This document shows, in pieces, positions 4,410-61,794 of a stretch of 64,000 bases of DNA. The stretch's first letter is position 1, and the number at the start of each line of letters is the position of its first letter. A program made the translations under genes and the position numbers. The stretch is taken from NCBI RefSeq assembly GCF_026109735.1, contig NZ_CP069620.1, forward strand, positions 1,736,001-1,800,000, written 5' to 3'. The notes under the pieces are model-generated. The model ran no database searches. It had not been told where the DNA came from and saw only the letters and a list, made by a program, of their open reading frames with translations. This DNA comes from Salinimicrobium tongyeongense. Lineage in GTDB: Bacteria; Bacteroidota; Bacteroidia; Flavobacteriales; Flavobacteriaceae.

Positions 4410-4668
4410 GATCAGCTGTTGCTAAGTGGTCAAAAATGGCATTTTAAGCAGGGATTTCTTTGAAGCTGTAACACCTACATTTGATATCTTACATACTGAA
4501 TTCCAGTATAATACTCCTTAAATTTATTTCTCAGGATTGACAAATATCATGTTCGGGATTTTTGAAGGGTTGTAGCTTTGCCTGTAATGCTAAACAAAGT
4601 GGGATCTATTGTTCTTATGGGTATCCTTCATTAGCAATAATCTTCCCTTTGTCTTAAACAAACAGGTC

Positions 4669-5241
4669 ATGAAAAACTTTTTAATCTTCTCAGGGTTCCT
4701 GTTGTTGTTCTCTATTCAAATGACAGCACAGGAGAAATGGGCTGTGGAGCTTCGTCCACAGGTGAATTTCCCAACTCAGCAGCCGGATGTTATGGATCTT
4801 AAAATTGGTTATGGGTTTGAGGCAATGCTTTTATATAATTTCACGGAAAGCCTGGGAGTCTATGCCGGTTGGGGCTGGAATAATTTTGGAATAGATGAAG
4901 AAAATGAATTTGCAGATCTGGAAATTGATGAGACCGGCTATTCCTTTGGATTAAACTATGTAAGGCCAATAAGTAACAATATGTCTTACCTTATTGGGAT
5001 TGGCGGGATCTATAAACATTTTGAATTCGAAGATAATTCAGGAGATATTACTGCAGATTCGGGACACGAATTGGGGTTTGAAGTTAAAGGCGGATTGGTA
5101 TTTGAACTGGGGAACAATTTTGATCTAAAGCCGCAGGTTGTGTACAGGTCCCTTTCGGCAACGGCAGATTTTGGTGCTGTTGATGCCGATATGGAGCTCC
5201 AGTACATTAGTTTTGGATTGGGAATTTCGAAGAGGTTCTAA
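4669..5241 (+). CDS. Small outer-membrane beta-barrel protein
   Basis: The protein has about 190 residues. A longer frame opens at 4609, but the ATG at 4669 is preferred because it starts a clean signal peptide (MKNFLIFSGFLLLF, cleavage near MTAQ). The rest alternates polar and hydrophobic residues (GYGFEAMLLYNF, GVYAGWGWNNFG, YLIGIGGIYKHFEF) and ends in a C-terminal aromatic residue (SKRF), as in OmpW/OmpX-like 8-stranded barrels. Function is unknown. A TAGCTTTG -7-like box lies at 4573-4580. A copy of the 19-bp palindrome overlaps its stop codon. Confidence 0.7.
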   Translation: MKNFLIFSGFLLLFSIQMTAQEKWAVELRPQVNFPTQQPDVMDLKIGYGFEAMLLYNFTESLGVYAGWGWNNFGIDEENEFADLEIDETGYSFGLNYVRPISNNMSYLIGIGGIYKHFEFEDNSGDITADSGHELGFEVKGGLVFELGNNFDLKPQVVYRSLSATADFGAVDADMELQYISFGLGISKRF

Positions 5242-5332
5242 AAATGACATTTTTGGCTCTCTTTTCAGGCTCTGAATATGTATTTCCCAACCATGGATCT
5301 TCAGAATTCTTGAGTTAAAAGCTATAGATGTC

Positions 5333-6532
5333 TTAGGCTCCCAAAGCTTTTTTGCTTCGGCTTGCCGCAATGTAAGATGCCATGGTTCCCAGCGCAGTAA
5401 TGGTGAGCATTACCACCAGTATATTCTGCCAGGTGATGGCCACAGGGTAAGGCAGGGTGGGGGTGATCATCACCAGGTCGTACTGCAGCTGCAAAAAGAC
5501 CAGCGCGATAGAAAAGACAAGCCCAATACTACCTCCCAAAAGTGTCATAAATACGCCCTGGGTAAAAAAGATATTTTTAATTTGCCCGGGCGTGGCCCCA
5601 AGGCTGTGCAAGGTCTTGATATTTTCCCTTTTGTCTAAAATCACCATGATAATTGAACCCACCACGTTAAAGAGTGCAATGATCAAAACCAGGGTAAAAA
5701 TAAGGTATACGGCCAGGTTTTCGGTATTCAGCATTTTGTAGAGCGCGTCGTTGAGCTGTGCCCTGTTCTTGATTTCCACCTCGTCATTAAGGGCTGCCTG
5801 TACGGCCGATTTTACAGTTTCGGGGTCTGCGTCGGGTTTTAACCTGAGTTCGAGGGCGGTGATCTCATCGGGTTTTAGCTCAAGGAGCTCTCTGGCCATG
5901 CGAATTGGGGCAAACACATATTTTCCGTCAAGCTCTTCGTTGATGCTGTAAATACCCGAAACTACGGTTCTTTCTGAATTGAAAGCACTGGTAGGATCGA
6001 GCACCTGTCCTGTTCCGGGGCGCGGCACCATGATCTCAAGCAGGCTCATATAATCAAAAGTCCCCAGGTTGAGCTCGTGGGATATGGTGTTTCCAATCAC
6101 CACCTGGGCTTCTTCAGGATGAAACCAGCCTCCCAGGCCAACCGCACTGTCCAGTTGGTTCACCTTCAGGAAATTTTCATCTACGCCTTTGATATAGGCC
6201 GTTTTATTCTTCGATTTAAAATCCAGGAATACCCGTTCTTCTATTACTTCTGAAAAAGTGGAAATTCCGCTGATGTTTTTCAGCTTCTGATTTTCTTCCG
6301 CAGAAAAGCTGAATGTCTTCCCCGTTGCCGGAAGCACTTTAAGATCGGGGTCATACTGGTTTGAAAAAGATAAGCTGAAGTCTCTGAGCCCCGTAAAGCC
6401 CGAAAGTACGATAAACAGGGCAAAAGACCCCGCAAAAACCCCTACTGCCGCGATGAAGGTGATGATGTTGATGGCATTGTTGCTGCTTTTTGAGAACAAA
6501 TACCTGCGGGCTATGTAAAAGGGGAATTTCAA
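5333..6532 (-). CDS. FtsX/LolC-LolE-family ABC transporter permease
   Basis: This 399-residue inner-membrane protein begins MKFPFYIARRYLFSKSSNNAINIIT, the LolC/E signature N-terminus. It has one membrane segment near residues 20-45, a large periplasmic domain (MacB-like, about 45-265) and three membrane segments in the C-terminal 130 residues with the FtsX motif (LGATPGQIKNIFFTQGVFM). LolCDE moves lipoproteins from the inner membrane to LolA. The ATPase LolD is not adjacent. It starts 3 bp after rbfA on the same strand, so the two are probably co-transcribed. Confidence 0.85.
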   Translation of the reverse strand: MKFPFYIARRYLFSKSSNNAINIITFIAAVGVFAGSFALFIVLSGFTGLRDFSLSFSNQYDPDLKVLPATGKTFSFSAEENQKLKNISGISTFSEVIEERVFLDFKSKNKTAYIKGVDENFLKVNQLDSAVGLGGWFHPEEAQVVIGNTISHELNLGTFDYMSLLEIMVPRPGTGQVLDPTSAFNSERTVVSGIYSINEELDGKYVFAPIRMARELLELKPDEITALELRLKPDADPETVKSAVQAALNDEVEIKNRAQLNDALYKMLNTENLAVYLIFTLVLIIALFNVVGSIIMVILDKRENIKTLHSLGATPGQIKNIFFTQGVFMTLLGGSIGLVFSIALVFLQLQYDLVMITPTLPYPVAITWQNILVVMLTITALGTMASYIAASRSKKALGA

Positions 6533-6535
6533 GCC

Positions 6536-6928: not shown

Positions 6929-7093
6929 GGCACAAAAATAGCATATTTAGTGCTCAAATCTTAAAATATGCGTTAATAGCTTTAGCTTTTTGCCACTAAA
7001 CGCTGCCGACTTTCTATATTTAAAACTCAAAACTTCCGGAGCGACTCATGTTGCTTCGGAAATTTGCATTTTAAAAACTATTGAAACTGAAAA

Positions 7094-7543: not shown

Positions 7544-7570
7544 CCTATCAAAAAATATATTTTTAAATGC

Positions 7571-7601: not shown

Positions 7602-7624
7602 CGCCCTCATAACACCAATGAGCC

Positions 7625-7667: not shown

Positions 7668-7675
7668 AAGCAAAC

Positions 7676-7918: not shown

Positions 7919-8521
7919 CTACAAGTACCATCCAGATAATTGAAGATAACATCTGTCTTCAACTCGTTCACTGGGCAACCACTTTGCCAGTGATACTCTT
8001 ATAAGTGTACCTGCTGGGATTACAGGAATGGCAGGCTGCATTCCTTTGTAAGGAAGCCGTTTGTCTACTGCAAGAAGTCTTCTCGTGTAGCGATAATATC
8101 TTTCACCGTCCCAAAGGAGGTCCCTGTCACTACTCCAAAAGCCAACACTATTAGTTGGTAAATCACTGGGGTTGTTGATATGTCCACTTCCATTGCCTGT
8201 CCATTTCAATTTCCCAGAGAATAAAGAATTGTAATTCCCCTGCCATACAGTGCAATGTTGTAAAATAAATTCTGCAATATCATCTAATTTTCTCAAAGGT
8301 CCTTGACGTCTGTCTACTCTAACATCTTCTATATGAGGAGGCTTGCCAGGGTGATAACGATAGTTTAAATCCCAAACTTCACCAATTTGGAAAGGAGAAT
8401 TTATCGGCTGATAACTTCCTATAGAAGTCATTAAACGAAGAAATCTTCCTGTGGTAATTTCCAAACCTCCTATGCAACAGCAGTCACTCCATCTTGTTTT
8501 TGATGTAATAAGAACTTCCAT
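7919..8521 (-). CDS. Dual OB domain-containing protein
   Basis: The 200-residue protein resembles the dual-OB (DuOB) family in its beginning (MEVLITSKTRWSDCCCIGGLEITTGR), the motif GRFLRLMTS and FQIGEVWDLNYRYHPGKPPHIEDVRV. OB folds usually bind nucleic acids; the exact role of this family is not known to me. Cysteines are concentrated near residues 14-16 (DCCCIGG). It is the last gene of an operon with two DUF488 proteins; its ATG lies 1 bp after the preceding stop (TAATATG), so translation is probably coupled. Family assignment is from memory of the motifs. Confidence 0.65.
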   Translation of the reverse strand: MEVLITSKTRWSDCCCIGGLEITTGRFLRLMTSIGSYQPINSPFQIGEVWDLNYRYHPGKPPHIEDVRVDRRQGPLRKLDDIAEFILQHCTVWQGNYNSLFSGKLKWTGNGSGHINNPSDLPTNSVGFWSSDRDLLWDGERYYRYTRRLLAVDKRLPYKGMQPAIPVIPAGTLIRVSLAKWLPSERVEDRCYLQLSGWYL

Positions 8522-8522
8522 A

Positions 8523-9002
8523 TTACAAATGGGTAATTTTATAATTGAATTTTCGGGATAAGTAGGAAGTAACTAATGATCTATGACAAGACTCGCTATT
8601 TTCTTCTACACAGAAAAAAACAATTTTTTCAGATCCTAATTTTTCCAAGTGGTTGAAAAATTCTTTATAATTAAATTGTTCCAAGATATCCTTGTTGTAC
8701 TTAGAAATAAAGAGTTCTCCTAACCCCCTCCGGTTTCTTTTTAATAGTCCAGATTTAAGATCATTTTTTTTTTGAAGTTCTCGAATTTCTTTTGTTGGAG
8801 CGAGGGATAATTGATGAATATATTTGACTCCTATATCTCGCAGTTTGTTCTGAAGTTTGGTGCTATTGACGAAAGAATATTTGGCTCCTCGCACTCCTCT
8901 TCTTTGACGTATATCGCAAAAAGTATCAATTCCATTTGACTTTATTTTTTGAAAAAAAGCTCTTTCTTCTGAATTGTAAACTCCAATAGTATAAAATTCC
9001 AT
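8523..9002 (-). CDS. DUF488 family protein (short form)
   Basis: The 159-residue DUF488 protein shows the family hallmarks: YTIGVYNSEE at the N-terminus, DIRQRRGVRGAKYSF (usual DxR motif), IHQLSLAP, and near the C-terminus CVEENSESCHRSL, where the cysteine-glutamate-CHR set suggests an active or metal site. The biochemical activity of DUF488 is not established. It overlaps the upstream DUF488 gene by 1 nt (TAATG) and is much more AT-rich than the flanking core genes. Confidence 0.8.
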   Translation of the reverse strand: MEFYTIGVYNSEERAFFQKIKSNGIDTFCDIRQRRGVRGAKYSFVNSTKLQNKLRDIGVKYIHQLSLAPTKEIRELQKKNDLKSGLLKRNRRGLGELFISKYNKDILEQFNYKEFFNHLEKLGSEKIVFFCVEENSESCHRSLVTSYLSRKFNYKITHL

Positions 9003-9547
9003 TACAGATATTCTTTTCTAGAAGTAAAATCGTTTACACCAAATAAATCTTTTAGTCCTTGTCCATTGGTCAATTCAGATATAATTTTTTCTTGCTTTTT
9101 TAAACCCTCTGGTGTAATATGATTTATTGATATATCATTATAAAGCAGTTCTTGTCCAATTAGTTTACTTCGATGGCATTCTTCGGGTTTCCGTTCACTA
9201 CACATCAAAGCTATTTTTAAATCTGCTTCATGAGCTTCTATTAATAACCTTATACCTTCCTTAAAAAAATCCTTGTCTCTTACTTTTTTATAATCTACTC
9301 TTCCATTTGTAAAACAACTTTTGTCTTTTGGCAACCCTCCTAAATAGTCACCTAAAAAAACATATGTAATTCCTTTTTTTGCCAATTCATATTCAAGTAC
9401 AGGTCTATTGAAATGTGGACAAAAATTAGAAACTGGCCTAGACCTTACATCAAAGACATATTCAATAAAGAAATTTTCTAATTCTTGAATAAAATCTTTA
9501 AGATCTTTATTTCCATGACCAATTGTATACAAGGACGTCTTCTCCAT
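9002..9547 (-). CDS. DUF488 family protein (long form)
   Basis: The 181-residue protein is the first gene of the three-gene operon. Family motifs are LYTIGHGNKDLKDF, FDVRSRPVSNFCPHFNRP, YVFLGDYLGGLP and MCSERKPEECHRSKL. The C-terminal 40 residues after the CHR motif are longer than in its neighbour. It is diverged from the second DUF488, so the two are not a recent duplication. A TATATTTG box (complement of 9552-9559) is 4 bp upstream of the ATG, so the mRNA may have almost no leader. Sampled 60-bp stretches here (9001, 9421) are only about 25-27% GC. Confidence 0.82.
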   Translation of the reverse strand: MEKTSLYTIGHGNKDLKDFIQELENFFIEYVFDVRSRPVSNFCPHFNRPVLEYELAKKGITYVFLGDYLGGLPKDKSCFTNGRVDYKKVRDKDFFKEGIRLLIEAHEADLKIALMCSERKPEECHRSKLIGQELLYNDISINHITPEGLKKQEKIISELTNGQGLKDLFGVNDFTSRKEYL

Positions 9548-9559: not shown

Positions 9560-9723
9560 AAGTTTTTATTTCAAGTGTAGATTCTTTGGGAAGATCTTCA
9601 CATCACATTTATAGTTTAAAAAGTACGCCTAAAACAATTCCAAACCTCACATTTAAAGAAAAAATCCCCCGCAGGCTCTACAAGGGATTTTTAGCAATAA
9701 GTAATAAAACCGGTTTTTAACCT

Positions 9724-10746
9724 CTATTTAAATGGGTTCTGTTTTGCCTCGGGGCGAACGTCGGCAGAAAGGCTTTTCAGGAAGGCTACTATATCTTCAA
9801 TCTCAGTTTCAGAAAGTTCTTTGGCGGTTTGCAGTGCTACCATAATCTCAACTGCTTTATTAAGATCTTCTACAGAGCCGTCGTGGAAGTATGGCGAGGT
9901 ATGTTCAATATTGCGCAGGCCGGGAACTTTAAAGAAATATTTGTCCATTTCATCCTGGCTTATCTCATACAGCCCCAAATCTATGGTTTCAGATTCGGTG
10001 TATTTCCAGTAGTCTTCGTACAAACCAAATTTCTGGAACATTTGCCCGCCCATGGCAACGCCGCTGTGGCAGGTGATGCACCCCGCATTGATAAAGCTTT
10101 TAAGTCCGGCTTTCTCCCTTTCGTTAAGTGCGGCATGATCTCCTTCAAGGTAGCTGTCAAACCGGCTTTTTGGCATGAGGGTGCGTTCAAAAGCCCCAAT
10201 GGCTTTGAGCACGTTTTCAAAAGTAATAGCCTCCTCGCCATAAGCCCGGGCAAACAAATCCTGGTACAGTTCCACTTCTTTCAGGCGGTTCACCAGTTGT
10301 TCTTCCTGTTTAATATTGTGTTCTACAGGGTTCAAAATAGGGCCTGCAGCCTGTTCTTCCACGGTTTGGGCACGGCCATCCCAAAACTGCATTTTGTGCA
10401 GGGCTGCGTATAGCACGGTGGGGGAATTCCGGTTTCCGAAGCTTCCTTCAACATCCCCGGGAGAGAACTGCCGGTTGTCTACCCCATACGTGTTCAGGTT
10501 GTGGCAGGAATTACAACTGATATTCCCTTCTCCCGACAAACGGGTGTCGTAAAATAAATGCTTGCCCAGTTTTACTGCATTTGAATCGGGTTCCTCCATT
10601 TCTACCGAAGACAAAGGCTGAAAATAGACACTTGCATCGGTGAGCAGCTCATAACCTTCATCGGTTAAGTCTTTTTGGGTATCCTCATTTTTGTTTTTGC
10701 AGGAAATGATCGCAAGAAGCGATACCAGGAGTAAAATGCGTTTCAT
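9724..10746 (-). CDS. Di-haem cytochrome c peroxidase (MauG/CcpA family) lipoprotein
   Basis: The 340-residue protein begins with a lipoprotein signal peptide (MKRILLLVSLLAIISC, Cys 16). It has two c-type haem sites, CNSCH at residues 78-82 and CITCH at about 223-227, at the spacing typical of bacterial di-haem peroxidases that reduce H2O2 in the periplasm. The conserved SFGNRNSPTVLYA and FKVPGLRNIEHTSPYFHDG segments also match. It is likely anchored to a membrane and facing the periplasm. Electron donors are not encoded nearby. Confidence 0.9.
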   Translation of the reverse strand: MKRILLLVSLLAIISCKNKNEDTQKDLTDEGYELLTDASVYFQPLSSVEMEEPDSNAVKLGKHLFYDTRLSGEGNISCNSCHNLNTYGVDNRQFSPGDVEGSFGNRNSPTVLYAALHKMQFWDGRAQTVEEQAAGPILNPVEHNIKQEEQLVNRLKEVELYQDLFARAYGEEAITFENVLKAIGAFERTLMPKSRFDSYLEGDHAALNEREKAGLKSFINAGCITCHSGVAMGGQMFQKFGLYEDYWKYTESETIDLGLYEISQDEMDKYFFKVPGLRNIEHTSPYFHDGSVEDLNKAVEIMVALQTAKELSETEIEDIVAFLKSLSADVRPEAKQNPFK

Positions 10747-10935
10747 ATTTAGAGAATTAGCGGTCAGGAACTAAAAATAGGAAAGCATGAGGGTAGAAAA
10801 CAATGACAAAAGTCAGGTGTTGAAGCTGGCATGCAGATTTTTTCTGAAAAAAGGGAACATTTTCCTGAAAACCCCATGTAAATCGGGTGCCTTTCGCAAA
10901 AAAACCAGAATCGGGAGGCTTTGATTTCAAGGCCT

Positions 10936-10954
10936 TCAAAAATGCCATTTTTGG
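10936..10954. repeat. 19-bp palindrome copy (TCAAAAATGNCATTTTTGA family)
   Basis: TCAAAAATGCCATTTTTGG matches the family consensus at all but the last base. It lies between genes. Confidence 0.75.
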
Positions 10955-10978
10955 AAAGCCTTTCCGAAGAAAATAGCT

Positions 10979-10997
10979 TCAAAAATGACATTTTTGG
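10979..10997. repeat. 19-bp palindrome copy
   Basis: TCAAAAATGACATTTTTGG, one mismatch to the consensus, is the second copy in the same intergenic region. Confidence 0.75.
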
Positions 10998-11036
10998 AAC
11001 CTGATCATGAGGAGGTAAAGATAAGGCCCGGGCTAA

Positions 11037-13574
11037 TTATTTTTCCTTCAGGAGTTCATCTGTTGCGTTCACCAGAAAGATATAACTGGCTCCAATATCA
11101 ACAATGTATTCGTTCTCGCCCCAGAAAAATGGCCAGTTTTCTTTGTTTTCAGGGTAATCGGGGCTCATTAACAGGATGCCGGGCACCACGCCGCCGGCAA
11201 TAAAACTAAAGTCGGCGCGGTTGCTTCCGTAAGCCACCTTTTTGCTCCTGGTGCCTACGCCCGAGACAAATGAAAGGTTGGAATGCGGATGCCTTCCGAA
11301 GATATAGTGTAAGCCTTTAAATACATGCTCTTTATCTATGAGCTCCGGAAATACCTTATGTGCCCTGTAGTTGGCGATGGCAAAATCTATGATCCCGTGG
11401 TTACCACCCCATCCCGGCCTGCGGAACATGGGCACTCCATAGGGGTTGTCTTTTTCAAGCTGCTCAATTTCTGAAGCATATTTTTGAACATAGGCTTTTA
11501 ATTTTTTTCTGAATGCTGCATCCATATGGGGCGCGGCGTGCAGGGCGATATCAATGGTCCGGTCAAGATTTTCGTCCATCGCGCTCCAGATCTTTGATTC
11601 AAAGGCTTCAGCATATTTAGCTTCTTTAGTGGTGACGTAGAGCTGCATGGCAGCATTCATTTCACTGAGCTTGAGAAAACGGGCAAAGTAGCCGGAAGAG
11701 GAATCGGGCGCAGGCATATTTTTATTCTCCCGCCAGAGTTTTTTTGCCAGTTCAAGACATTCGGCAGCCAGAGACGGGTTGTAATCCTTTAAAGCCCGGC
11801 TTGCGGCAGCCAGTGCCCCTGCGGTGCTGTAGTCCAGGTAAGGGGAGCGTTCAGAAAACACCCATCTGTCATCCATATTTCCGCTGGACACTCCGTCGCT
11901 TTCGAATGGCTTCAAATTGGGATTGTAGGGCAGGTTGTCAGTCTCTGTTGAGGCGTCTCCCAGATGATGGTACTGGTGAAGGTTAGGAACTATGATGCCC
12001 CTAACCGGGTGCCCTATATTATTGATCTGCGCTACCAGGTTTAAGGTACCATGTTCTATTTGCTGCAGGATATCTATTTGCCCATCGGGCCTGTGGATAT
12101 CCACGTAACGATTTTCCTGGTTGATATGGGTTTGATCGCGGTCCAGCCCAAACTCTTCCCAGGAAGCAACCAGATCGGTAATGGTTAGGCAATGCGTACC
12201 TGTTTGAATGTCATAATCTCCGGCGTCAAACCATCCGCCAACATCAAGGCCGGGGATGTGTTCGTAGGGTTGAAACCTGGTATCTGTAGATGATCCCATG
12301 CTATAACCGTCAAAATGTTCCTGCTCCAGCGGTGCCTGCAAGGCGTCATCCATAAATGGTCTCCCGTGCCAGGTTTTGTAGGCTTCATTTACCTTCATGT
12401 GATCCATTTGTACGGGGAAGAAAACATCCAGGGTAGGGTGCCAGGCGGTTTCGTACACCTGCTCACTTATGGGAAAAGTATTTGTGGTTTGATCCCCGTA
12501 TTTTATAAAATAGACCCCCGTTTCGGTTATTTCCGAAAAATCAAACTCTACATAATTGTACCTGAAATGATTACCCCATTCGCTAACCTGGCCGGTCAAT
12601 TCTTCCACCGTTTTTCCCTGCGGGGTTACCTGATACAAAGTGGCAGGTTGCAACCTGTCGTCGTTTTTATCCAGTTCTATGATGGCAAGTTTTTTTTGTT
12701 CAGGATGATAGCCAATCTGGGAAAAACCAATATTAGGCTCCCGGATCCAGTCAGTAACGGTGTTGGCTTCCAGATGCCACTCCAATACTTTTCCCGTTTT
12801 ATTCGCCGGCAGGATACTGCGGGTAACAAACCAGCCATTTTGGGCAAGGCTTCTCCCGTCAAATAAAGAGATCTCGGTTTCTGAAGAAATTTTTACGTGG
12901 TGATAAGGATCCTCAGGTGCCAGGATAATGGTTTTCCCGGCAGCCAGGGGCTGGGGTTCAATGAATTCTTCTTCCCCGCGGGTGTCTAAGGTGGAATGCC
13001 CGGCAAACTGCGGAACTTTTTCATTTATGGGTTTAATCCTGGTATTCCCCGATGGATAAAGGGGGAAGATACCCGGTTTCCCATTGACCAGGTAAGACTT
13101 TTCAAAATAAGCAGCAGGCAAAAATTCCAGGTTAAACCCGGCTTTTCCTTCCAGGTTTTCAGGCAGGGGTTTATCGAGATGCACAGAAATATTCACTCCC
13201 TTTCCTTCGGCCCTGACGATGATCCTGGAGGTGAAATCCAACTGGTTATAACGGGTGGTCACCTCTATGGTATTGGAAGCAGGGTCTACCTTTCGTTCTA
13301 CAAGGGAAGGTACAAGGTCCCATTGTTCGGGCGTGTTCTGCAACCTTACAGCCCCTCCGGTACTACTTCTCATCCCGTGGTGAATGAGCTCGATTCCGGC
13401 GTTTTTTTCGTCAAAAAAGAAGCCGTTGTACTCATTGCTAAAGACAAGAACATTGAGCCCGTGGGTTTCAAAATATTCTTTTTCGTTAATGCTGAGTTGT
13501 GCGAATAGCGGTTTGGCATTGAAGATACAAATAACAAGAAGTGCCCAATTTCTGAGTGCTGATCTTTTACCCAT
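11037..13574 (-). CDS. Glycoside hydrolase family 9 (endoglucanase-type) with N-terminal Ig-like domain
   Basis: The 845-residue secreted enzyme has a signal peptide (cleavage near LFAQ). An N-terminal region of about 300 residues is not assigned. A cellulase Ig-like domain follows (ANIGFSQIGYHPEQKKLAII-like, EFDFSEITETGVYFIKYGD), then the GH9 (alpha/alpha)6 barrel. The catalytic Asp pair lies in DVGGWFDAGDYD near residue 450 and the general-acid Glu in WGENEYIVD near 815. GH9 enzymes cut beta-1,4-glucans by inversion; some act as exo-glucosidases on oligosaccharides. No SusCD pair is beside it. Confidence 0.9.
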   Translation of the reverse strand: MGKRSALRNWALLVICIFNAKPLFAQLSINEKEYFETHGLNVLVFSNEYNGFFFDEKNAGIELIHHGMRSSTGGAVRLQNTPEQWDLVPSLVERKVDPASNTIEVTTRYNQLDFTSRIIVRAEGKGVNISVHLDKPLPENLEGKAGFNLEFLPAAYFEKSYLVNGKPGIFPLYPSGNTRIKPINEKVPQFAGHSTLDTRGEEEFIEPQPLAAGKTIILAPEDPYHHVKISSETEISLFDGRSLAQNGWFVTRSILPANKTGKVLEWHLEANTVTDWIREPNIGFSQIGYHPEQKKLAIIELDKNDDRLQPATLYQVTPQGKTVEELTGQVSEWGNHFRYNYVEFDFSEITETGVYFIKYGDQTTNTFPISEQVYETAWHPTLDVFFPVQMDHMKVNEAYKTWHGRPFMDDALQAPLEQEHFDGYSMGSSTDTRFQPYEHIPGLDVGGWFDAGDYDIQTGTHCLTITDLVASWEEFGLDRDQTHINQENRYVDIHRPDGQIDILQQIEHGTLNLVAQINNIGHPVRGIIVPNLHQYHHLGDASTETDNLPYNPNLKPFESDGVSSGNMDDRWVFSERSPYLDYSTAGALAAASRALKDYNPSLAAECLELAKKLWRENKNMPAPDSSSGYFARFLKLSEMNAAMQLYVTTKEAKYAEAFESKIWSAMDENLDRTIDIALHAAPHMDAAFRKKLKAYVQKYASEIEQLEKDNPYGVPMFRRPGWGGNHGIIDFAIANYRAHKVFPELIDKEHVFKGLHYIFGRHPHSNLSFVSGVGTRSKKVAYGSNRADFSFIAGGVVPGILLMSPDYPENKENWPFFWGENEYIVDIGASYIFLVNATDELLKEK

Positions 13575-13749
13575 AAGGAATCATTTTTTATAAATGTAAA
13601 AAATAATTGTTAAAAACACACTTTATTAATTGTTTTTAGATTAGGCGGGAATAACTTCTGCCGGAAATGAGTGGCGCCTTCAAAAAATGTTAGCCTAAAG
13701 AAACCTAAAGGCAATTCAGGTTCTTCTAAAGACCATTCAAAATTACCTC

Positions 13750-13814
13750 TCAAAAACGCCATTTTTGACACCTTTTTTTCAGAATAGATTCACCCTCTAA
13801 AACCGCATTTTTGA
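13750..13814. repeat. Two neighbouring 19-bp palindrome copies at the 3' end of the DUF5916 gene
   Basis: TCAAAAACGCCATTTTTGA (13750-13768) has one mismatch. A degenerate copy at 13796-13814 (TCTAAAACCGCATTTTTGA) overlaps the last codons of the minus-strand DUF5916 gene, where it encodes SKMRF and the stop. Confidence 0.6.
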
Positions 13815-16268: not shown

Positions 16269-16369
16269 TGTGTTTAGTTAAAAGACATAAAAAGAGGTGA
16301 TTTGTTGCAGTACAACAGAAAATTTTCTGGTTTTTTCGGTTATTTCTGAAGTTTTAGCTGAAATTCCTT

Positions 16370-16388
16370 TCAAAAATGCCATTTTAGA
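16370..16388. repeat. 19-bp palindrome copy, with adjacent TTCTTCGGAA inverted repeat
   Basis: TCAAAAATGCCATTTTAGA has one mismatch to the consensus. Just beyond it, TTCTTCGGAA (16408-16417) and TTCCGAAGAA (16435-16444) form a perfect 10-bp inverted repeat with a 17-bp gap. The whole 272-bp region before the BLUF gene contains no supported gene. Confidence 0.65.
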
Positions 16389-16540
16389 AGCGTATTTTTT
16401 CTGAAGCTTCTTCGGAAATTCAAAAGAAAAGATCTTCCGAAGAAATTGAAGAAATCCTGCTGAAGGCCGGCGGGAATTATGAAAGTCTTGGGAGCACCTG
16501 TAGCGATACTTCTTTATATTAGTTTGCAAAATGATTTTTT

Positions 16541-16954
16541 ATGCAGCATGCTATATGTTTTGTAAGTAGCGCCAGTGCGCACTTACCCGAAGATAAAGTT
16601 GAAACCCTGCTCATGGAATGGCGGGAAAAAAATAACGCCAACAACATTAAAGGAATGCTCCTTTTTTCTGAAGGCAACTTCTTCCAGGTGCTGGAAGGGG
16701 AAAAGAACAAGGTTCTGGGGCTTTTTGAGCAGATCAGGGAAGACCCGCGGCACCACAGCATCATACAGGTGGTGGGAAAAGACCTTTCAACCGGCTCTTT
16801 TGATGATTATATCGCAGAACATTTAAAACACACCACGTTCTCAAAGCCCGAGCTGGTAAGCGAGTACTGCGAATCTGTAAAAGGTATGGACCCTCAAACC
16901 CAGAGGCATATCAAGATCATCCTTGAAACTTTTATTGACACCAGGGCTTTGTAG
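16541..16954 (+). CDS. BLUF-domain protein lacking the photoactive tyrosine
   Basis: The 137-residue protein is almost wholly a BLUF (blue-light, FAD-binding) domain of the short PixD type: NNANNIKGMLLFSEGNFFQVLEG and IREDPRHHSIIQVV are characteristic. The flavin-contacting Gln (Q49) and Asn (N34) are present. Aligned by hand to PixD (Tyr 8 in LIYSS), the essential Tyr is replaced by Phe 7 in ICFVSS. Tyr-to-Phe changes at this site are known to abolish normal photocycling, so light sensing may be lost or altered. No output domain is attached. Confidence 0.85.
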   Translation: MQHAICFVSSASAHLPEDKVETLLMEWREKNNANNIKGMLLFSEGNFFQVLEGEKNKVLGLFEQIREDPRHHSIIQVVGKDLSTGSFDDYIAEHLKHTTFSKPELVSEYCESVKGMDPQTQRHIKIILETFIDTRAL

Positions 16955-16974
16955 TATTTAATTAGCTTGCCGTG

Positions 16975-17355
16975 ATGAAATTCAATGCAGGTTATTTTTG
17001 GGCGGCCGTTCTTCTTTTCTTTACAGAGGTTTTAATTGCTGCTTTTATAAACGATGCGGTCATTAGGCCCTACGGCGGCGACTTTCTGGTAATCATATTT
17101 TTGTATTGCCTTTTAAAGAGCTTTTTTGACATTCCTGTCAAAAATGCCATTTTTGGAGTGCTGCTTTTCGCTTTTGCTGTTGAAGCTTCACAGTATTTCA
17201 ACCTTATTTTTCTGCTGAAGCTTCAGGATAACGGGATTGCTTCGGCGGTGTTGGGAAATCATGCTGAATGGCTGGATATATTTATTTACACGCTTGCGGC
17301 ACTCGGCATTTATTCCGCAGAAAAATTAAAAGCAGGTTATTTGAAAGCTGAGTGA
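16975..17355 (+). CDS. DUF2809 family small membrane protein
   Basis: The protein has about 126 residues. A GTG at 16972 precedes an ATG at 16975, and the ATG is the likelier start. There are four hydrophobic segments. The motif VIRPYGGDFLVIIFLYCLLKSF and VEASQYFNL with a later EWLDIFIYTLAALGIY fit DUF2809. Function is unknown. It follows the BLUF gene by 20 bp on the same strand and is probably co-transcribed with it. An intact palindrome copy at 17138-17156 lies inside the gene and encodes VKNAIFG. Confidence 0.78.
   Translation: MKFNAGYFWAAVLLFFTEVLIAAFINDAVIRPYGGDFLVIIFLYCLLKSFFDIPVKNAIFGVLLFAFAVEASQYFNLIFLLKLQDNGIASAVLGNHAEWLDIFIYTLAALGIYSAEKLKAGYLKAE
17138..17156. repeat. 19-bp palindrome copy inside a coding region
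   Basis: TCAAAAATGCCATTTTTGG, one mismatch to the consensus, lies inside the DUF2809 gene in the frame VKNAIFG. Confidence 0.65.
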
Positions 17356-17426
17356 GGTTAAATCGCCAGTGCAAATAATAAAATATTTTCCGGGATATTT
17401 CAGCTGTATTTTCTTCCGAAGAAAAG

Positions 17427-29282: not shown

Positions 29283-29320
29283 AGGCCTCACAGGTTTTCA
29301 AAACCTGTGAGGCCTTTTTT
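29283..29320 (+). terminator. Long palindromic terminator after accC
   Basis: A 16-nt arm (starting AGGCCTCACAGG) pairs almost perfectly with its complement ending in CCTGTGAGGCCT, followed by six Ts. Related, more degenerate hairpins occur at 36188-36217 and 53495-53528. Confidence 0.85.
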
Positions 29321-29405: not shown

Positions 29406-29424
29406 TCAAAAATGACATTTTCAT
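29406..29424. repeat. 19-bp palindrome copy touching the start codon of the FAD oxidoreductase gene
   Basis: TCAAAAATGACATTTTCAT has a perfect left half. Its right end runs into the ATG at 29423, so it overlaps the translation start region. Confidence 0.55.
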
Positions 29425-30544
29425 GAGCTTTTCTTTTTGGGAACACGATTCCTGGTTTTCTAATATTGATTTTACCATTGTTGGCAGCGGGATTACCGGC
29501 CTTACCTGCGCCCTGCAGTTAAAGACCCGCTACCCTGAAGCTAAGGTGGTAATTCTCGAACGGGGGCTCCTGCCCAATGGTGCCAGCACCAAAAATGCCG
29601 GGTTTGCCGCTTTTGGCAGCCTTAGCGAACTTCTTGACGATTTGCAGCAGCATTCCGAAGAAGAAATGCTCGAACTGGTAAGGCAAAGGCTAGAAGGCCT
29701 GGAATTACTCAAAAGAACCCTGAGCCCCGGCAGCATAGATTTGCAGGTTCACGGCGGGTATGAACTCTTTACAGCGGCAGAAGGGAATCTTTTTGACTCG
29801 TGCCTCTCAAAAATGGCAAAAATTAACAGCCTTTTATATCCCGTTTTTGGAGAGGATGTTTTCAGCGTTACCAGCAATACCTTCGGCTTTGCAAAAGTGG
29901 AAGACAGCCTTATCTACAATAAATTCGAAGGCCAGCTGGATACCGGGAAACTGATGAGCGCCTTGCTTCAGAAGGTGCAGGCGGCGGGTGTTAAGATCCT
30001 CAATTCGGTTACCGTAAATGCTTTTGCTGAAGTAGGCGATTCCGTAGAAATAGAAACCGAACATTTTAGCTTCTACACCGGTAAACTGCTTATTGCCACC
30101 AACGGTTTTGCCTCGCAACTGGGTATTCCCGAAGTAAAACCCGCCCGGGCACAGGTGTTGATCACAGAACCTATCCCAAACCTGCATCTAAAAGGAACTT
30201 TTCACCTTGAAAAGGGCTTTTACTACTTCCGGAATATTAACAACAGGATACTTTTGGGTGGCGGCAGGAACCTAAACCTGAAAGGGGAAGAAACCACCGA
30301 AATGGCATTGACGGCACTCGTACAGCAGCGGCTGGAAAGCCTGCTCAAAAATGTCATTTTACCCGACACTCCTTTTAAGATCGAAAGGAGGTGGAGCGGC
30401 ATCATGGGAATGGGCGGGCAGAAGAAACCGGTGATCAAAAAGGTTTCCGATAATGTTTACTGCGGAGTGCGCTTAGGCGGAATGGGAATAGCAATTGGCA
30501 GCCTGGTAGGAAAAGAGCTGGCCGGTCTAATTGAATCACGATGA
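29423..30544 (+). CDS. FAD-dependent amine/amino-acid oxidoreductase (DAO family)
   Basis: The 373-residue flavoprotein has the Rossmann motif FTIVGSGITGLTCALQL at the N-terminus and the ILERG end of the second strand. The DAO-type KNAGFAAFGSLSELL and a C-terminal GVRLGGMGIAIGSLVGKELA follow. Substrate is unknown; glycine oxidase or sarcosine oxidase-like relatives act on secondary or primary amines. It overlaps mtgA by 4 nt (ATGA), so it heads a three-gene operon. A palindrome copy at 30345-30363 is in-frame (LLKNVILPD). Confidence 0.85.
   Translation: MSFSFWEHDSWFSNIDFTIVGSGITGLTCALQLKTRYPEAKVVILERGLLPNGASTKNAGFAAFGSLSELLDDLQQHSEEEMLELVRQRLEGLELLKRTLSPGSIDLQVHGGYELFTAAEGNLFDSCLSKMAKINSLLYPVFGEDVFSVTSNTFGFAKVEDSLIYNKFEGQLDTGKLMSALLQKVQAAGVKILNSVTVNAFAEVGDSVEIETEHFSFYTGKLLIATNGFASQLGIPEVKPARAQVLITEPIPNLHLKGTFHLEKGFYYFRNINNRILLGGGRNLNLKGEETTEMALTALVQQRLESLLKNVILPDTPFKIERRWSGIMGMGGQKKPVIKKVSDNVYCGVRLGGMGIAIGSLVGKELAGLIESR
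30345..30363. repeat. Degenerate palindrome copy inside a coding region
   Basis: TCAAAAATGTCATTTTACC, perfect left half and three mismatches at the right end, encodes KNVIL in the oxidoreductase gene. Confidence 0.4.
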
Positions 30545-32869: not shown

Positions 32870-32888
32870 GTAAAAATGCTATTTTACA
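32870..32888. repeat. Palindrome variant at the 3' end of the prolyl oligopeptidase gene
   Basis: GTAAAAATGCTATTTTACA is a variant of the 19-bp palindrome with two changes per half that keep the symmetry. It overlaps the stop codon of the minus-strand gene. Confidence 0.45.
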
Positions 32889-35151: not shown

Positions 35152-35170
35152 TCAAAAATGCCATTTTTGG
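35152..35170. repeat. 19-bp palindrome copy, 3' of asd
   Basis: TCAAAAATGCCATTTTTGG has one mismatch to the consensus and lies 12 bp beyond the asd stop. Confidence 0.7.
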
Positions 35171-36485: not shown

Positions 36486-36504
36486 TCAAAAATGACAGTT
36501 TTAG
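36486..36504. repeat. Degenerate palindrome copy at the mscL stop
   Basis: TCAAAAATGACAGTTTTAG has a perfect left half and three mismatches on the right. It overlaps the mscL stop at 36501. Confidence 0.4.
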
Positions 36505-36929
36505 CTGTTCTTTTTCCTCAATTCATCCCTGATTTCGGTGAGCAGCTGTTCCTGGGAAGGGCCTTTAGGTTCGGTAACTTTTGGGGCTTCCTTCGCAGTC
36601 TTGGTTCTTTCATAAGCCCGTAACACCAGGAAGATAAAGAAAGCCACAATCACGAAATAAATAATGGCCTGAATGACATTTCCGTAGGTGAGCACGGCAG
36701 CTTCGGCTTCTTTTGCGGCGTCAAGGGTCTCGTACTCATTGCCGTCAAGCGAAATGAACTTTTGGGAGAAGTCTATTCCCCCGGTAATCACGCCAATAAT
36801 TGGCATAATGATATCGGCCACCACAGAAGACACGATTTTGTTAAAAGCGCCTCCTACAACAACTGCTGTAGCCAGGGCGATAATGTCACCTTTCATTAGA
36901 AAAGCCTTGAAATCCTTAAAAAATGCCAT
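36501..36929 (-). CDS. mscL: Large-conductance mechanosensitive channel
   Basis: The 142-residue protein begins [33 protein letters not shown], the conserved N-terminal helix and TM1. A periplasmic loop and TM2 ([21 protein letters not shown]) follow. The cytoplasmic C-terminal helix is charged ([19 protein letters not shown]). It opens under membrane tension to release solutes in osmotic down-shock. Start region overlaps a weak palindrome (36917-36935). Confidence 0.96.
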
Positions 36930-36967
36930 TTTTCAGATGTTTTGAGTTAGTAGGCTAAATGTATGAA

Positions 36968-42503: not shown

Positions 42504-42670
42504 CCCCTCTTCTGTTAATATTGTTGCTGAATTCTTACAGCCTGTATTCTTCATTTGCTGTTCAACAATTTTCCATGTACTTGATCTAAAAAAGTTTTTG
42601 ATAATGAGATGTTTAGCTACTTTAGAAGAGCCATAACATAAGTAGGTTAAGTTCATGGTAGATTTGGGGC

Positions 42671-42700
42671 AAAAAAAGGTGGAGTCATCCACCTTTTTTT
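42671..42700. terminator. Bidirectional terminator between recJ and sod
   Basis: AAAAAAAGGTGGA and TCCACCTTTTTTT form a 13-bp stem with a GTCA loop. A runs and T runs on both flanks let it work in both directions. Confidence 0.88.
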
Positions 42701-42717
42701 ATGCGTGAAATTCAGCA

Positions 42718-52579: not shown

Positions 52580-53424
52580 TAAAAGAGCAGAAGAATATAA
52601 GCCTTCCGGGCCTTCACGGGCGGCCAATCCCAACCGATGTATTTTCTTCGGAAGAAGAAGGGCGCAAACCGGTAGTCTTGTTCTGTCACGGTTATAAAGG
52701 CTTCAAAGACTGGGGCGCCTGGAATTTGATGGCAGCCGAATTCGCCCGAAACGGGTTCCTCTTTGTGAAATTCAACTTTGCCTTCAACGGCGGCACCCTT
52801 GAAAACCCTATAGATTTTCCCGATCTTGATGCGTTTGGGGAGAATACTTATACCAAAGAACTCGATGATCTAAAAGTCTTAATTGACTGGATAAGCAGCG
52901 AAAATTTCCCGTTTGCCAACCAGGCCGACCTTTCCCGTCTCACTTTAATGGGGCACTCCCGGGGCGGAGGTATTGCGGTGGTTAAAGCTGCGGAAGATAC
53001 CCGTATCCAAAAGCTCATTTCACTTGCGGCAGTAAGTGATTTTGAAGACAGGTTCCCCAAAGGCGAAGAACTGGAGGCCTGGAGGCAAAAAGGAATCTCT
53101 TATATAGAAAATTCCCGCACCAAGCAGAAAATGCCGCACCTGTTCGATTTTTATGAAGACTTCAAGCAAAATGAAGAGCGGCTGAATATTGCCAGATCGG
53201 CTCAAAAATTAGATATTCCTTTTCTAATTGTTCACGGCACCAATGATCCTACGGTGGCTGTAGATAATGCGCATCAACTGCATGAATGGGCTTCAAAATC
53301 AGATTTGTTTCTGCTTGAAGGCAGCGATCATGTCTTTGAAGCTTCGCATCCGTGGGAGCGGGAAGATTTGCCGCCAGCCATGAAGAAGATCATAGAAAAA
53401 GCAACCGGGTTCATTAAAAAATAA
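52573..53424 (+). CDS. Alpha/beta hydrolase (peptidase S9-like fold)
   Basis: The 283-residue soluble hydrolase has the oxyanion region VLFCHGYKGFKDWG, nucleophile elbow MGHSRGGG, acid in VHGTNDPTVAVDNA and His in GSDHVFEASHPWE. Substrate is unknown. It overlaps the AddB-like gene by 7 nt, so the two are translationally coupled. A symmetric palindrome copy follows its stop. Confidence 0.82.
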   Translation: MVVKEQKNISLPGLHGRPIPTDVFSSEEEGRKPVVLFCHGYKGFKDWGAWNLMAAEFARNGFLFVKFNFAFNGGTLENPIDFPDLDAFGENTYTKELDDLKVLIDWISSENFPFANQADLSRLTLMGHSRGGGIAVVKAAEDTRIQKLISLAAVSDFEDRFPKGEELEAWRQKGISYIENSRTKQKMPHLFDFYEDFKQNEERLNIARSAQKLDIPFLIVHGTNDPTVAVDNAHQLHEWASKSDLFLLEGSDHVFEASHPWEREDLPPAMKKIIEKATGFIKK

Positions 53425-53428: not shown

Positions 53429-53447
53429 CCAAAAATGGCATTTTTGG
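53429..53447. repeat. 19-bp palindrome copy, 3' of the hydrolase gene
   Basis: CCAAAAATGGCATTTTTGG is fully self-complementary around its centre, 4 bp after the stop. Confidence 0.75.
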
Positions 53448-53755: not shown

Positions 53756-54268
53756 ATGATCAAACCCGCCAAAATAGAAGATCTCCCAAAGATAAAGAAC
53801 CTTACTGAAGCCTGTGCCCTGGCCATGCAGAAAAGAGGGATCCTGCAATGGAATGAATTCTACCCTTCTTTAGAAAGGCTCAAAAATGACATTTTACAGG
53901 GGGAAATGTACCTGCTTGAAGAGGAAGGAAATATTGAGGGGATCATTGTTTTAACGCCGGCCATAGATGAAGAATACATTCCTGTAGAATGGCTTACGCC
54001 AAACGGGAACAACCTTTACGTGCACCGCCTGGCAACGAAGCCCGAAAAGTGGGGCAGCGGGCATGGGCGTAGGCTTATGGATTTTGCTGAAGATTTTGCC
54101 AAAAAACAGCATTGCGTTTCAGTAAGGCTGGATACCTTCAGTGAAAATAAACGCAACCAAAAATTCTATGAAGCCCGGGGCTACAAAAGGCTGGGGAACA
54201 TTTATTTTCCGAAGCAAAGCGAATCCCCTTTCTACTGCTATGAAAAGATACTGGGCTCATGGCGGTAG
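53756..54268 (+). CDS. GNAT-family N-acetyltransferase
   Basis: The 170-residue protein has the GNAT fold. The acetyl-CoA-binding motif is LATKPEKWGSGHGRRLMDFAEDFA, followed by VRLDTFSENKRNQKFYEARGYKRLGNIYF. Substrate is unknown. It overlaps the MATE gene by 10 nt. An in-frame palindrome copy (53880-53898, TCAAAAATGACATTTTACA) encodes KNDIL near residue 45. A TATTTTTG box is at 53730-53737. Confidence 0.85.
   Translation: MIKPAKIEDLPKIKNLTEACALAMQKRGILQWNEFYPSLERLKNDILQGEMYLLEEEGNIEGIIVLTPAIDEEYIPVEWLTPNGNNLYVHRLATKPEKWGSGHGRRLMDFAEDFAKKQHCVSVRLDTFSENKRNQKFYEARGYKRLGNIYFPKQSESPFYCYEKILGSWR
53880..53898. repeat. Palindrome copy inside the GNAT gene
   Basis: TCAAAAATGACATTTTACA: perfect left half, two mismatches at the right end. 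Confidence 0.45.
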
Positions 54269-56404: not shown

Positions 56405-56584
56405 ATGGAGGTATTGCGAATTGTACTCTTTCAGGAGATAGAGAAGACCAAAGCTTTCCAGGTAGGCTATGAAATAGGTTATTTTGTAGGTTCTAATTTT
56501 TGGGAAGTAGTGACCGCAGCCGTGGTGATCTTGGCAGTAATTCTTTACCTTGCTTTCTTCAGAAAGAAAAAAAGCATCGGCTAA
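56405..56584 (+). CDS. Small single-span membrane protein (59 aa)
   Basis: From ATG 56405 the frame reads MEVLRIVLFQEIEKTKAFQV, then an amphipathic or hydrophobic segment FWEVVTAAVVILAVILYLAFF and a positive tail RKKKSIG. The start is 1 bp after the preceding stop. Function is unknown. The palindrome at 56581-56599 overlaps its stop. It is the first of three small membrane proteins. Confidence 0.65.
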   Translation: MEVLRIVLFQEIEKTKAFQVGYEIGYFVGSNFWEVVTAAVVILAVILYLAFFRKKKSIG

Positions 56585-56599
56585 AAATGTCATTTTTGA
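56581..56599. repeat. 19-bp palindrome copy at the stop of the 59-aa gene
   Basis: CTAAAAATGTCATTTTTGA has two changes at the left end only. Confidence 0.65.
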
Positions 56600-58781: not shown

Positions 58782-58783
58782 GT

Positions 58784-59734: not shown

Positions 59735-59862
59735 ATTATCTGTTTCTTTTAAAGATACCTTTATTTCCTAAAATGCCCAAGCAGAGCATGGGGGGATGGC
59801 ATTTTTTCTGAAGATTTTAACTTCGGAAATTTTAAAACTATCTTTACCGGCAAATCTTTAGC

Positions 59863-60615: not shown

Positions 60616-60990
60616 CGCTTAAGAGCCAGGAAACAGGAGCCAAGATTTTTGGTAAAAGCAGGGAAAAAAACTTTAGGGAGCTGCAGAAAAACTTTTTCCG
60701 GCGCATTCAGCCATTTTAAAAAGAGTTCGCGGTTTTTAACTTTTTGCCTCGACTCCTGCCTTTCGTAGCACATAATAATTTCGTCTTTTAGGCGGTCAAA
60801 AATGCCATTTTTGACAGCTGTTTTTCCGCAGTGGTAAAACTGAAAAACCTGCAATCGTTTTCGAGGCTAAAATGTTGATTTCTTTCAATATGCAAATGAT
60901 ATTTGTCATGCTACAGGGCTTTTTATAGAGGTATCTTTAGGTGATATAAATCAGGAAATATGTCCAGCAGTTTCCGCAATTTTTAAAGCC
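60616..60990. other. 375-bp intergenic region with a palindrome copy
   Basis: No supported gene is present. It holds AGCCAGGAAACAGGAGCCA words like generic flavobacterial repeats and an intact palindrome (60796-60814). An 85-residue minus-strand frame has no recognisable feature. A TATCTTTA -7-like box lies near 60932. Confidence 0.5.
60796..60814. repeat. 19-bp palindrome copy, consensus
   Basis: TCAAAAATGCCATTTTTGA, the exact consensus, lies mid-way between lpxH and the universal stress gene. Confidence 0.75.
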
Positions 60991-61770
60991 ATGAAAAATA
61001 TCCTAATCCCCTTCGATTTTTCTGAAGTATCTAAAAATGCTTTAGATTATGCTGTGAAATTTGCAGATAAGGATCCCTTAATTAATTTATTCCTACTGAA
61101 CATTACTGAAGAAGGCGCTGATGTTAATGCTGTACGTGAAGATTTCAAAAAAGTCATTAAAAAATACAAAAAACCGCTTTCTCCTGAGATCTATACACTG
61201 GTACAAACGGGAGAGCTGGTCTCTTCTATAATTCAGCTTCAAAAAGAGCTAAAAGTAGACATCATTATGATGGGAACCAGAGGTGCCAATCTCGAAGAAG
61301 AGAATGTGGCCACCACTACATCCCGTCTTGTTCATGAAGCCGACCTTCCGGTACTGGTGATCCCGGAAAAATATAAAAAGTTCAGGCTTGAGAGTATTAT
61401 CCTTTCTTTAGGCAACGAAAAGATAGCCGACAGGTCCCCTTTATATGTATTGCTCGATGTTTCCCGCAAACACAAGGCGCAGGTGCATGTTTTGACCATT
61501 CAGCAACATGAAATGGCCATGGGCTACACCGAAGATGACGAGAGCAACGAAACCACCCTCAATTATTTTCTTGAAATGTTCTATTCTCACCACACCTTCC
61601 ACGAAAGTGAAGACATTGAGCAGGGAATTTTGAACTATATCAAGAAGAACGACATGGATATGCTTGCCATTATGCCAAAAACCCACTTACCGGGGGAAGA
61701 AGCATCTCCGGGCCGTCTCACAAGACTGCTCACTTTACATTCTAATGTTCCTTTACTGGTGCTCGATTAG
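60991..61770 (+). CDS. Universal stress protein, tandem two-domain
   Basis: The 259-residue protein has two USP domains. The first ends in the ATP-binding GxxG pattern MMGTRGANLEEENVATTTSRL. The second half (from about 145) has YVLLDVSRKHKAQVHVLTI and a more divergent end. The N-terminus NILIPFDFSEVSKNALDYAVKFA is a family hallmark. It probably responds to stress, but the target is unknown. pckA follows 99 bp downstream. Confidence 0.88.
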   Translation: MKNILIPFDFSEVSKNALDYAVKFADKDPLINLFLLNITEEGADVNAVREDFKKVIKKYKKPLSPEIYTLVQTGELVSSIIQLQKELKVDIIMMGTRGANLEEENVATTTSRLVHEADLPVLVIPEKYKKFRLESIILSLGNEKIADRSPLYVLLDVSRKHKAQVHVLTIQQHEMAMGYTEDDESNETTLNYFLEMFYSHHTFHESEDIEQGILNYIKKNDMDMLAIMPKTHLPGEEASPGRLTRLLTLHSNVPLLVLD

Positions 61771-61775
61771 GCAAT

Positions 61776-61794
61776 GCTGGAATGCCATTTTACG
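61776..61794. repeat. Half palindrome, 3' of the universal stress gene
   Basis: GCTGGAATGCCATTTTACG keeps only the core AATGCCATTTT. Confidence 0.3.

Follow-up and report, generated by a model that had tools for sequence, protein, structure and literature searches.

The stretch of DNA studied here raises the question of what one short palindrome is doing in so many copies, both within and between genes, on a bacterial chromosome. This stretch, hereafter the window, comprises 64,000 bp of Salinimicrobium tongyeongense (NCBI RefSeq assembly GCF_026109735.1, contig NZ_CP069620.1, positions 1,736,001 to 1,800,000). In our numbering it is G000:C1:1736001-1800000, where G000 is the host genome, whose chromosome has 3,509,958 bases, and G001-G011 are 11 congeners. 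An earlier note on the window described about ten near-perfect and ten weaker copies of a 19-bp palindrome, and proposed a roaming repeat, a nucleoid-protein site or a 3'-end signal. We found that the palindrome, CAAAAATGNCATTTTTG, is the core of a longer, two-fold symmetric site that is present in hundreds of copies and confined to the genus, and we consider that it has about an even chance of being the binding site of a single putative chromosome-wide protein.

At up to two mismatches, CAAAAATGNCATTTTTG occurs 683 times in the whole genome of S. tongyeongense, against 8 times for the reversed word. In the window, the 19-mer gave 19 matches at up to three mismatches, where 0.22 were expected (100 shuffles, largest 2), and its better-defined 17-mer core, which begins one base after the 19-mer start, was found at 16 places at up to two mismatches. 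An 844-kb sample of G000, made up of a 504-kb block and 17 stretches of 20 kb, contained 175 sites, whereas 593 shuffled palindromes of the same composition gave 0.52 on average and 8 at most; the other seven of 600 shuffled palindromes were near-copies of the motif (up to 76 matches) and were set apart from the controls. The frequency is thus far above that of both the reversed-word and the shuffled-palindrome controls, and the family is real. It is also the sole gapped-palindrome family (arms of 6 or 7, spacers of 0-13) with at least eight copies in 464 kb.

All ten places listed earlier as near-perfect exist: measured against the 19-mer, the copy at 60796 has no mismatch, those at 53429 and 56581 have two, that at 5238 has three and the other six have one. 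The list of weaker copies stood in part, as those at 4430, 29406, 30345, 36486 and 53880 pass at up to two mismatches in the 17-mer; those at 13796, 48145 and 51354 have three mismatches in the 17-mer, the one at 32870 has five in the 19-mer, and 61776 does not match within five. Two copies were missing from that list, at 36917 (2 mismatches) and 31851 (3 mismatches). The one-base spacing of the arms is strict in the window, with 14 occurrences of AAAATG-N-CATTTT and none with spacers of 0 or 2-6 bases.

The symmetric site is longer than the 19 bp described before, extending over about 41 bp around a core of 17-19 bp. Read outward from its free centre, the symmetrised logo of the 175 sites (102 intergenic and 73 coding) is C A T T T T T G A/G, followed by a weak A at +11, G/C at +12/+13, T at +14 and T from +16 to +20. 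T-tracts hence lie 16-20 bp from the centre, with A-tracts on the opposite side, and the logo information stops near +20. In an unsymmetrised logo of 98 sites both halves are separately visible and mirrored to about ±20 bp, and no asymmetric head was seen beside the palindrome. Picking sites by their core inflates the information of the core and not that of the flanks. For comparison, 971 A-tract/T-tract decoys were taken from the same DNA. At positions 16-18, the tract letters stand at 0.61 in intergenic copies, 0.52 in coding copies and 0.35 in the decoys, and G/C at positions 12-13 stands at 0.74, 0.66 and 0.45, respectively.

Several observations bear on whether the palindrome works as RNA or as DNA. 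Pairing between opposite flank positions from ±9 to ±20 was not above the expectation from composition, meaning that no covariation was detected there. In tandem copies the A/T tracts of the two sides are alike (0.55 and 0.59), as they are in divergent and coding copies; convergent copies are less even, with 0.46 for A on the left and 0.76 for T on the right. On its own, the core has a folding energy of -2.8 kcal/mol, and the palindrome has neither the compensated stem nor the T-tract restricted to the downstream side that define an intrinsic terminator. Four of 68 intergenic copies are the tips of long terminator-like hairpins in which 9-11 further bases pair. Since the flanks do not covary and look much the same whether a copy lies within a gene or in a tandem, divergent or convergent gap, the palindrome is a DNA site rather than an RNA element, and most simply a putative site for a dimer. 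This is in line with the earlier description of a poor RNA hairpin and a good dimeric protein-binding site, and the symmetric A/T and G/C flanks are seen in every context. In agreement with the same description, no named element corresponding to the palindrome was found: no Rfam family matched it, and nothing on it turned up among open PMC papers searched for its letters, for palindromes in the genus, and for uptake words or iterated palindromes in Bacteroidetes or Flavobacteria, subscription papers being outside this scope.

The palindrome family is confined to Salinimicrobium, a genus of marine bacteria in the Flavobacteriaceae, and relatives in this family have hardly any copies. At up to two mismatches, the genomes G001 to G011 contain, in this order, 2, 112, 698, 43, 361, 382, 316, 410, 325, 357 and 323 copies, the genomes of G001 and G009 being 74-75% complete, while a further 48 genomes, from the same family and order, contain 1-24 copies, with 0-20 for the reversed control. 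At up to one mismatch over 397 genomes of the family, G000 has 365 copies, G005 171, G002 42 and G004 9, and the other 393 have at most 5. Among 80 listed loci with the exact 19-mer (from at least 120 stretches), a listing that gives names and not counts, 65 are from Salinimicrobium and 15 from other taxa. Some viral contigs contain one exact site each, which may be chance.

A tree of PdxA from 19 genomes, which represents one gene and has weakly supported forks around G001, G002 and G004 (88/89, 81/75), places G001 first, followed by G002 and G004, next G009, next G007/G011 and G010, and last G005/G006/G008 and G000/G003. When this branching is combined with the copy numbers, the count rises stepwise toward the species of the window, from 2 to 43-112, 316-410 and about 690. 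The tree does not say whether the low-count species are ancestral or have lost sites. The genome G001, placed in the genus, is divergent and incomplete; besides its 2 palindromes, it has no exact copy of a second iterated word described below, CTTCCGAAGAAA, and no DNA match to window positions 9700-17500.

To locate the sites relative to genes, gene boundaries were taken from a home-made caller (coding 85%) that misses some genes (e.g. window 7919-9547) and may misplace starts, so that coding and intergenic counts are approximate. In the 844-kb sample, coding DNA has 73 sites in 734 kb (0.10 per kb) and all gaps together have 1.12 per kb, which makes them about 11-fold denser; 42% of the motif matches (73/175) fall in coding DNA versus 70% of those of the control palindromes. 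The gap classes differ in site density (chi-square p = 0.014), with 21 sites in convergent gaps (1.79/kb), 61 in tandem gaps (1.13/kb) and 12 in divergent gaps (0.65/kb); 8 of the 175 sites, in gaps of >800 bp and at stretch ends, fall outside this classification. The 61 sites in tandem gaps lie at a median of 42 bp from the upstream stop versus 133 bp from the downstream start (Kolmogorov-Smirnov p = 8e-5). The proposed 3'-end signal therefore holds to the extent that intergenic copies lean to the 3' ends of genes, but with 73 of the 175 copies inside genes and 12 in divergent gaps this lean is a tendency and not a definition. Coding copies are weaker, being perfect in 7 of 73 cases versus 32 of 102 for intergenic copies (p = 0.0008), and 21 of the 30 coding copies in a first sample are in the frame that reads K-N-x-I-F.

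Each of 20 sampled 20-kb stretches contains 2-8 sites, and in the 504-kb block the spacing is roughly random (variance/mean 1.1-1.3), apart from one long gap; this near-random spacing indicates that sites are present chromosome-wide. By hand, the counts of the 20-kb stretches had looked under-dispersed, and the idea of an even spacing was dropped in view of the 504-kb block. GC skew changes sign near 1.63 Mb of the G000 chromosome, and the window is therefore probably near the origin; no gradient in site counts from this presumed origin was seen by eye over the 20 stretches of 20 kb. A palindromic site that is spread chromosome-wide and leans away from gene starts has the distribution of a nucleoid-type site.

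The long gap corresponds to an island, G000:C1:1668992-1727521, whose start and end lie about 67 kb and about 8.5 kb, respectively, ahead of the window. Its 58,529 bp are without any palindrome, and the gap exceeds those in all 1000 simulations. With the site density seen elsewhere in the block, 11.8 sites would be expected, giving P(0) = 7e-6 for a gap that was chosen after being seen. The island has a G+C content of 38.8% versus 43.8%, and is rich in what by eye appear to be carbohydrate genes, among them genes resembling glycoside hydrolases, a SusC/SusD-like pair and a transporter. This DNA looks acquired, and is one case. The word CTTCCGAAGAAA has no exact copy in the island and one at up to one mismatch, versus 27 and 113, respectively, in the 504-kb block.

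Conservation at orthologous positions was analyzed with 154 sites at up to one mismatch from fetched loci (139 from Salinimicrobium and 15 from other taxa). Without masking, 36 of these align to the sampled part of G000, at about 24 places, and none of them is from other taxa; 32 of the 36 have a site at up to two mismatches and 4 are gapped. None of the seven sites in the G007 sample aligned to G000. Because the site itself can seed a plain alignment, we relied on a test in which sites were masked. In this test 26 of 153 sites align through, at about 20 G000 places; 5 of these alignments are gapped, 17 of the 21 ungapped ones keep the site, and 11 of the 20 places have at least one kept alignment. 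Core identity in the masked alignments is 0.877 versus 0.64-0.82 at six shifted places, and it is lowest at the free centre base (0.67). The window sites at up to one mismatch are kept in 6 of 8 cases in G003, 4 of 6 in G008, 3 of 5 in G005, 5 of 5 in G006 and 1 of 2 in G007, and in none of the single cases in G002, G010 and G011. Many alignable sites are thus kept in congeners, and they tend to be better conserved than their flanks. Neither of the two conditions under which the earlier note would have given up the family, a frequency no higher than composition predicts and a lack of conservation in relatives, was observed. Most coding matches with 3 mismatches do not persist as sites in congeners and probably reflect chance.

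The explanation that we favour, to which we give the even chance mentioned above, is that each copy is the binding site of one putative homodimeric, chromosome-wide protein, nucleoid-associated or chromosome-organising, whose sites would be created by substitution and kept by weak selection. The homodimer would read the arms AAAAATG and CATTTTT across one free base, and would probably bend or wrap the approximately 41 bp, which would account for the preference for G/C at 12-13 bp and for A/T-tracts at 16-20 bp. Sites would arise through point substitution in resident DNA, and selection would keep them least in coding DNA and near starts, and most just beyond gene ends. The kept positions, the gain or loss by substitution of the copy at 53880 (see below) and the absence of sites from the island together point to a slow formation of sites within resident DNA and to their retention by selection. 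The system would be young, as it is limited to Salinimicrobium and its site number differs stepwise between branches, and the 3'-end lean would allow a role in transcript separation. Known chromosome-organising sites such as matS, Noc and SlmA sites are palindromic dimer sites that are present in tens of copies with regional placement. The Salinimicrobium palindrome resembles them as a dimer-type site repeated over the chromosome and not tied to promoters, and differs from them in that there are 683 copies, with 2-8 in each of the 20 stretches, and in that its binder is putative.

Several points weigh against this explanation. A purely architectural role does not predict the 3'-end lean. At offsets 23 and 25, which are outside the site, pairing is above chance (z of 2.2 and 3.0 among 25 offsets). 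Conservation was measured on a minority of the sites, the alignments are not independent, and the nearest shifted control (-90 bp) reaches an identity of 0.824. The low counts in the poor species could reflect a shifted motif; no clear replacement motif was found in 200-kb samples of G002 and of G004. Finally, the binder was not found in a search in which HU was tested and whole proteomes were not screened. HU (PF00216), the family that first comes into question, does not track the sites, as all 12 genus genomes, rich or poor, have two strong paralogues (G007, G009 and G011 have a weak third match), and it was rejected as the binder. A DNA-binding gene located beside sites was also considered, namely a Crp/Fnr-like gene at L033:4335-4916 (assigned by eye) that lies between a perfect and a 2-mismatch site. 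It was rejected as well: sites stand within 300 bp at either end of 15 of 711 genes. Crp sites have an even centre, unlike the one-base-spaced palindrome.

The best surviving alternative, which we nevertheless regard as unlikely, is a 3'-end signal of the roadblock type, in which a protein bound just past stop codons would block or separate transcription from either side without an RNA hairpin. The order of the gap densities (convergent over tandem over divergent), the short median distance from the stop in the 61 tandem gaps and the four copies at the tips of long hairpins are all consistent with it. However, the copies inside genes are about 200 times the control mean there (73 vs 0.37), divergent gaps have 12, tandem copies carry similar tracts on both sides, and the lean toward 3' ends may be an avoidance of promoters.

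A self-recognition signal for DNA uptake or another form of DNA transfer is a still weaker candidate. Uptake sequences (DUS and USS) are asymmetric and lineage-restricted, occur in hundreds of copies in genes and gaps, and in some cases lie within terminators. The palindrome shares with them the hundreds of copies in genes and gaps, the restriction to a lineage, here a genus, and the location of some copies in terminator-like hairpins, and an island that has no sites is also nearly without CTTCCGAAGAAA. It differs from them in its two-fold symmetry over 41 bp and its near-symmetric logo, and its density in coding DNA is about 11-fold below that in gaps; of the two words, CTTCCGAAGAAA, being asymmetric, would be the better candidate for an uptake signal, should one of them be such a signal.

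We think it improbable that the copies are operators of an ordinary but very broad transcription factor. The shape of the site is operator-like, but sites lean away from starts (the median of 133 bp given above) and from divergent gaps, and the genes at most 130 bp downstream of sites have no common function by eye (inspected for the under-400-amino-acid part of 43 rows).

Very little speaks for a mobile REP-like element spread by a Y1 (RAYT-type) transposase, and with it for the roaming repeat proposed earlier. REP and REPIN elements, which go with RAYT transposases, are likewise palindromes enriched in gaps and present in hundreds of copies; G000 has four matches to Y1_Tnp, and 4 of 11 inspected Y1_Tnp loci have 1-2 copies nearby. 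But the other seven have no copy in about 3.3 kb, and copy number does not go with the transposase: G005 has 361 copies without a Y1_Tnp match, and G002 has four Y1_Tnp matches yet 112 sites. None of the 36 congener alignments has a gap of at least 12 bases, which is a weak test in that only 4 of them lack the site. Moreover, the copy at 53880 differs from six congeners by ungapped substitution, the logo has no asymmetric head, and the acquired-looking island of 58.5 kb has no copies, though insertions should be tolerated there. A RAYT/REP origin is thus disfavoured, as the sites do not track the transposase and neither an insertion signature nor a head was seen.

By description, the nearest known system is HIP1 of cyanobacteria, which, with the alternate HIPs, is characterized in Elhai 2015 (PMC4390886) as a short lineage-specific palindrome iterated genome-wide and low or near-absent in some genomes, HIP1 itself being an 8-base GC-rich word tied to methyltransferases. 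The Salinimicrobium palindrome is likewise highly iterated throughout the genome, lineage-specific and scarce in some genomes, but its core is A/T-rich, measures 17-19 bp and lies within a symmetric site of 41 bp. That methylation-directed repair acting around a short methylated core produced the word is as improbable as a REP origin: the arm letters around ATGNCAT are bimodal (all six in 107 cases, five in 42, four in 29 and 0-3 in 224, the last being close to the 206 expected for all), ATGNCAT without arms is near its expected number, so that no over-represented short core was found (no methyltransferase search was made), and the flanks extend to 20 bp.

The copies in the window illustrate these features. 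In a convergent gap, the copy at 5238..5256, whose 17-mer has 1 mismatch, overlaps the stop of an outer membrane protein beta-barrel gene (4609-5241). Two copies with perfect 17-mer cores, 10936..10954 and 10979..10997, lie 43 bp apart, the first of them 3' of a glycosyl hydrolase family 9 gene (11037-13574, minus strand); the first is perfect in G003, and the second differs in G003 at the free centre base only. The copy at 13750..13768 has 1 mismatch and is perfect in G003 and G005. That at 16370..16388 (1 mismatch) is located in the gap from which a DUF5916 gene and a BLUF gene diverge, has 1 mismatch in G008 and is gapped in G003 and G005. At 17138..17156, a perfect core within a DUF2809 gene (16975-17355) reads KNAIF and has 0-1 mismatches in G003, G005, G006 and G008. 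The perfect core at 35152..35170 has its centre 21 bp beyond the stop of a semialdehyde dehydrogenase gene (35182-36171, minus strand), with 0-2 mismatches in G003, G005, G006 and G008 and gaps in G007 and G002. Similarly, the centre of the perfect core at 53429..53447 is 14 bp beyond the stop of an alpha/beta hydrolase gene (52573-53424), and G003, G008 and G006 have 0-2 mismatches. The copy at 56581..56599 (1 mismatch) has 1 mismatch in G007, 2 in G006, 3 in G008 and 4 in G005, and is gapped in G003, G010 and G011. The perfect 19-mer at 60796..60814, in a tandem gap, has 2 mismatches in G006 and 3 in G008.

Among the copies with 2 mismatches, that at 53880..53898, within a GNAT acetyltransferase gene, is kept in G003 and absent from G008, G006, G005, G007, G011 and G002, where the alignment is ungapped with 10-12 mismatches. 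The copy at 36917..36935 is outside mscL or overlaps its 5' end, depending on the choice of start; it has 2 mismatches in G005 and is gapped in eight others. The copy at 30345..30363, within an FAD-dependent oxidoreductase gene, has 2 mismatches in G003 and 4-8 in six others. Three further copies have 2 mismatches in the 17-mer: 29406..29424, 8 bp ahead of a start codon, is not conserved (4 mismatches in G010; gapped in G007 and G011), 4430..4448 has its centre 30 bp beyond a dihydrouridine synthase gene, and 36486..36504, at the mscL stop, has 3 mismatches in G003 and is gapped in five others.

The second iterated word, the asymmetric 12-mer CTTCCGAAGAAA, has 172 exact copies on both strands of G000 versus 1 for the reversed control; examples in the window are at 3547, 16434, 17413, 25045, 30704, 45258, 46515 and 52643. 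At up to one mismatch, 99 of 126 copies are in coding DNA, and the 19 exact coding copies use five of the six strand-frame combinations. The word is common in many genera of the Flavobacteriaceae (for example, 168 copies in G311, 140 in G072, 123 in G096, 122 in G275 and 103 in G022), whereas many other genera have almost none. By appearance the word is a candidate for a role in uptake or chromosome processing, and may instead reflect a coding bias (SEE/SSE peptides). A composite element of the palindrome and CTTCCGAAGAAA was rejected, as only 13 of the 126 copies are within 80 bp of a palindrome.

Two other elements were observed in the window. At 29283-29315, CCTCACAGGTTTT and AAAACCTGTGAGG form the stem of a terminator-like hairpin that precedes a run of T's. 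This hairpin is dispersed: it has short matches in 9 of 9 congeners searched and occurs at 3 places in the 844 kb of G000. The region 42611-42705 contains 48 conserved bases (42629-42676) followed by a hairpin and a T-run. These 48 bases have an identical copy on the other strand at about G000:C1:1813800, copies of 90-94% identity in 8 of 9 congeners searched and one of 80% in G003. No Rfam family came near its cut-off for this region, which is a candidate paired small RNA.

For the biology of the genus, a broader picture can be proposed tentatively, and with less confidence than the binding protein itself: Salinimicrobium may have a chromosome-organising system that is young and specific to the genus, and that its living species, with a handful to about 700 sites per chromosome, show at different stages of growth. 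A putative DNA-bending dimer would occupy sites added base by base in resident DNA and concentrated at gene 3' ends, where the bound protein may block transcription independently of direction. In one large island, the sites also tell resident from acquired-looking DNA. If the sites are held by a protein, the species would form a natural series (2, 43, 112, 316-410 and about 690 sites) showing how a genome-wide binding landscape grows, in which orthologous positions can be compared and, if this is true, a sequence-specific architectural protein would be added to the Bacteroidota.

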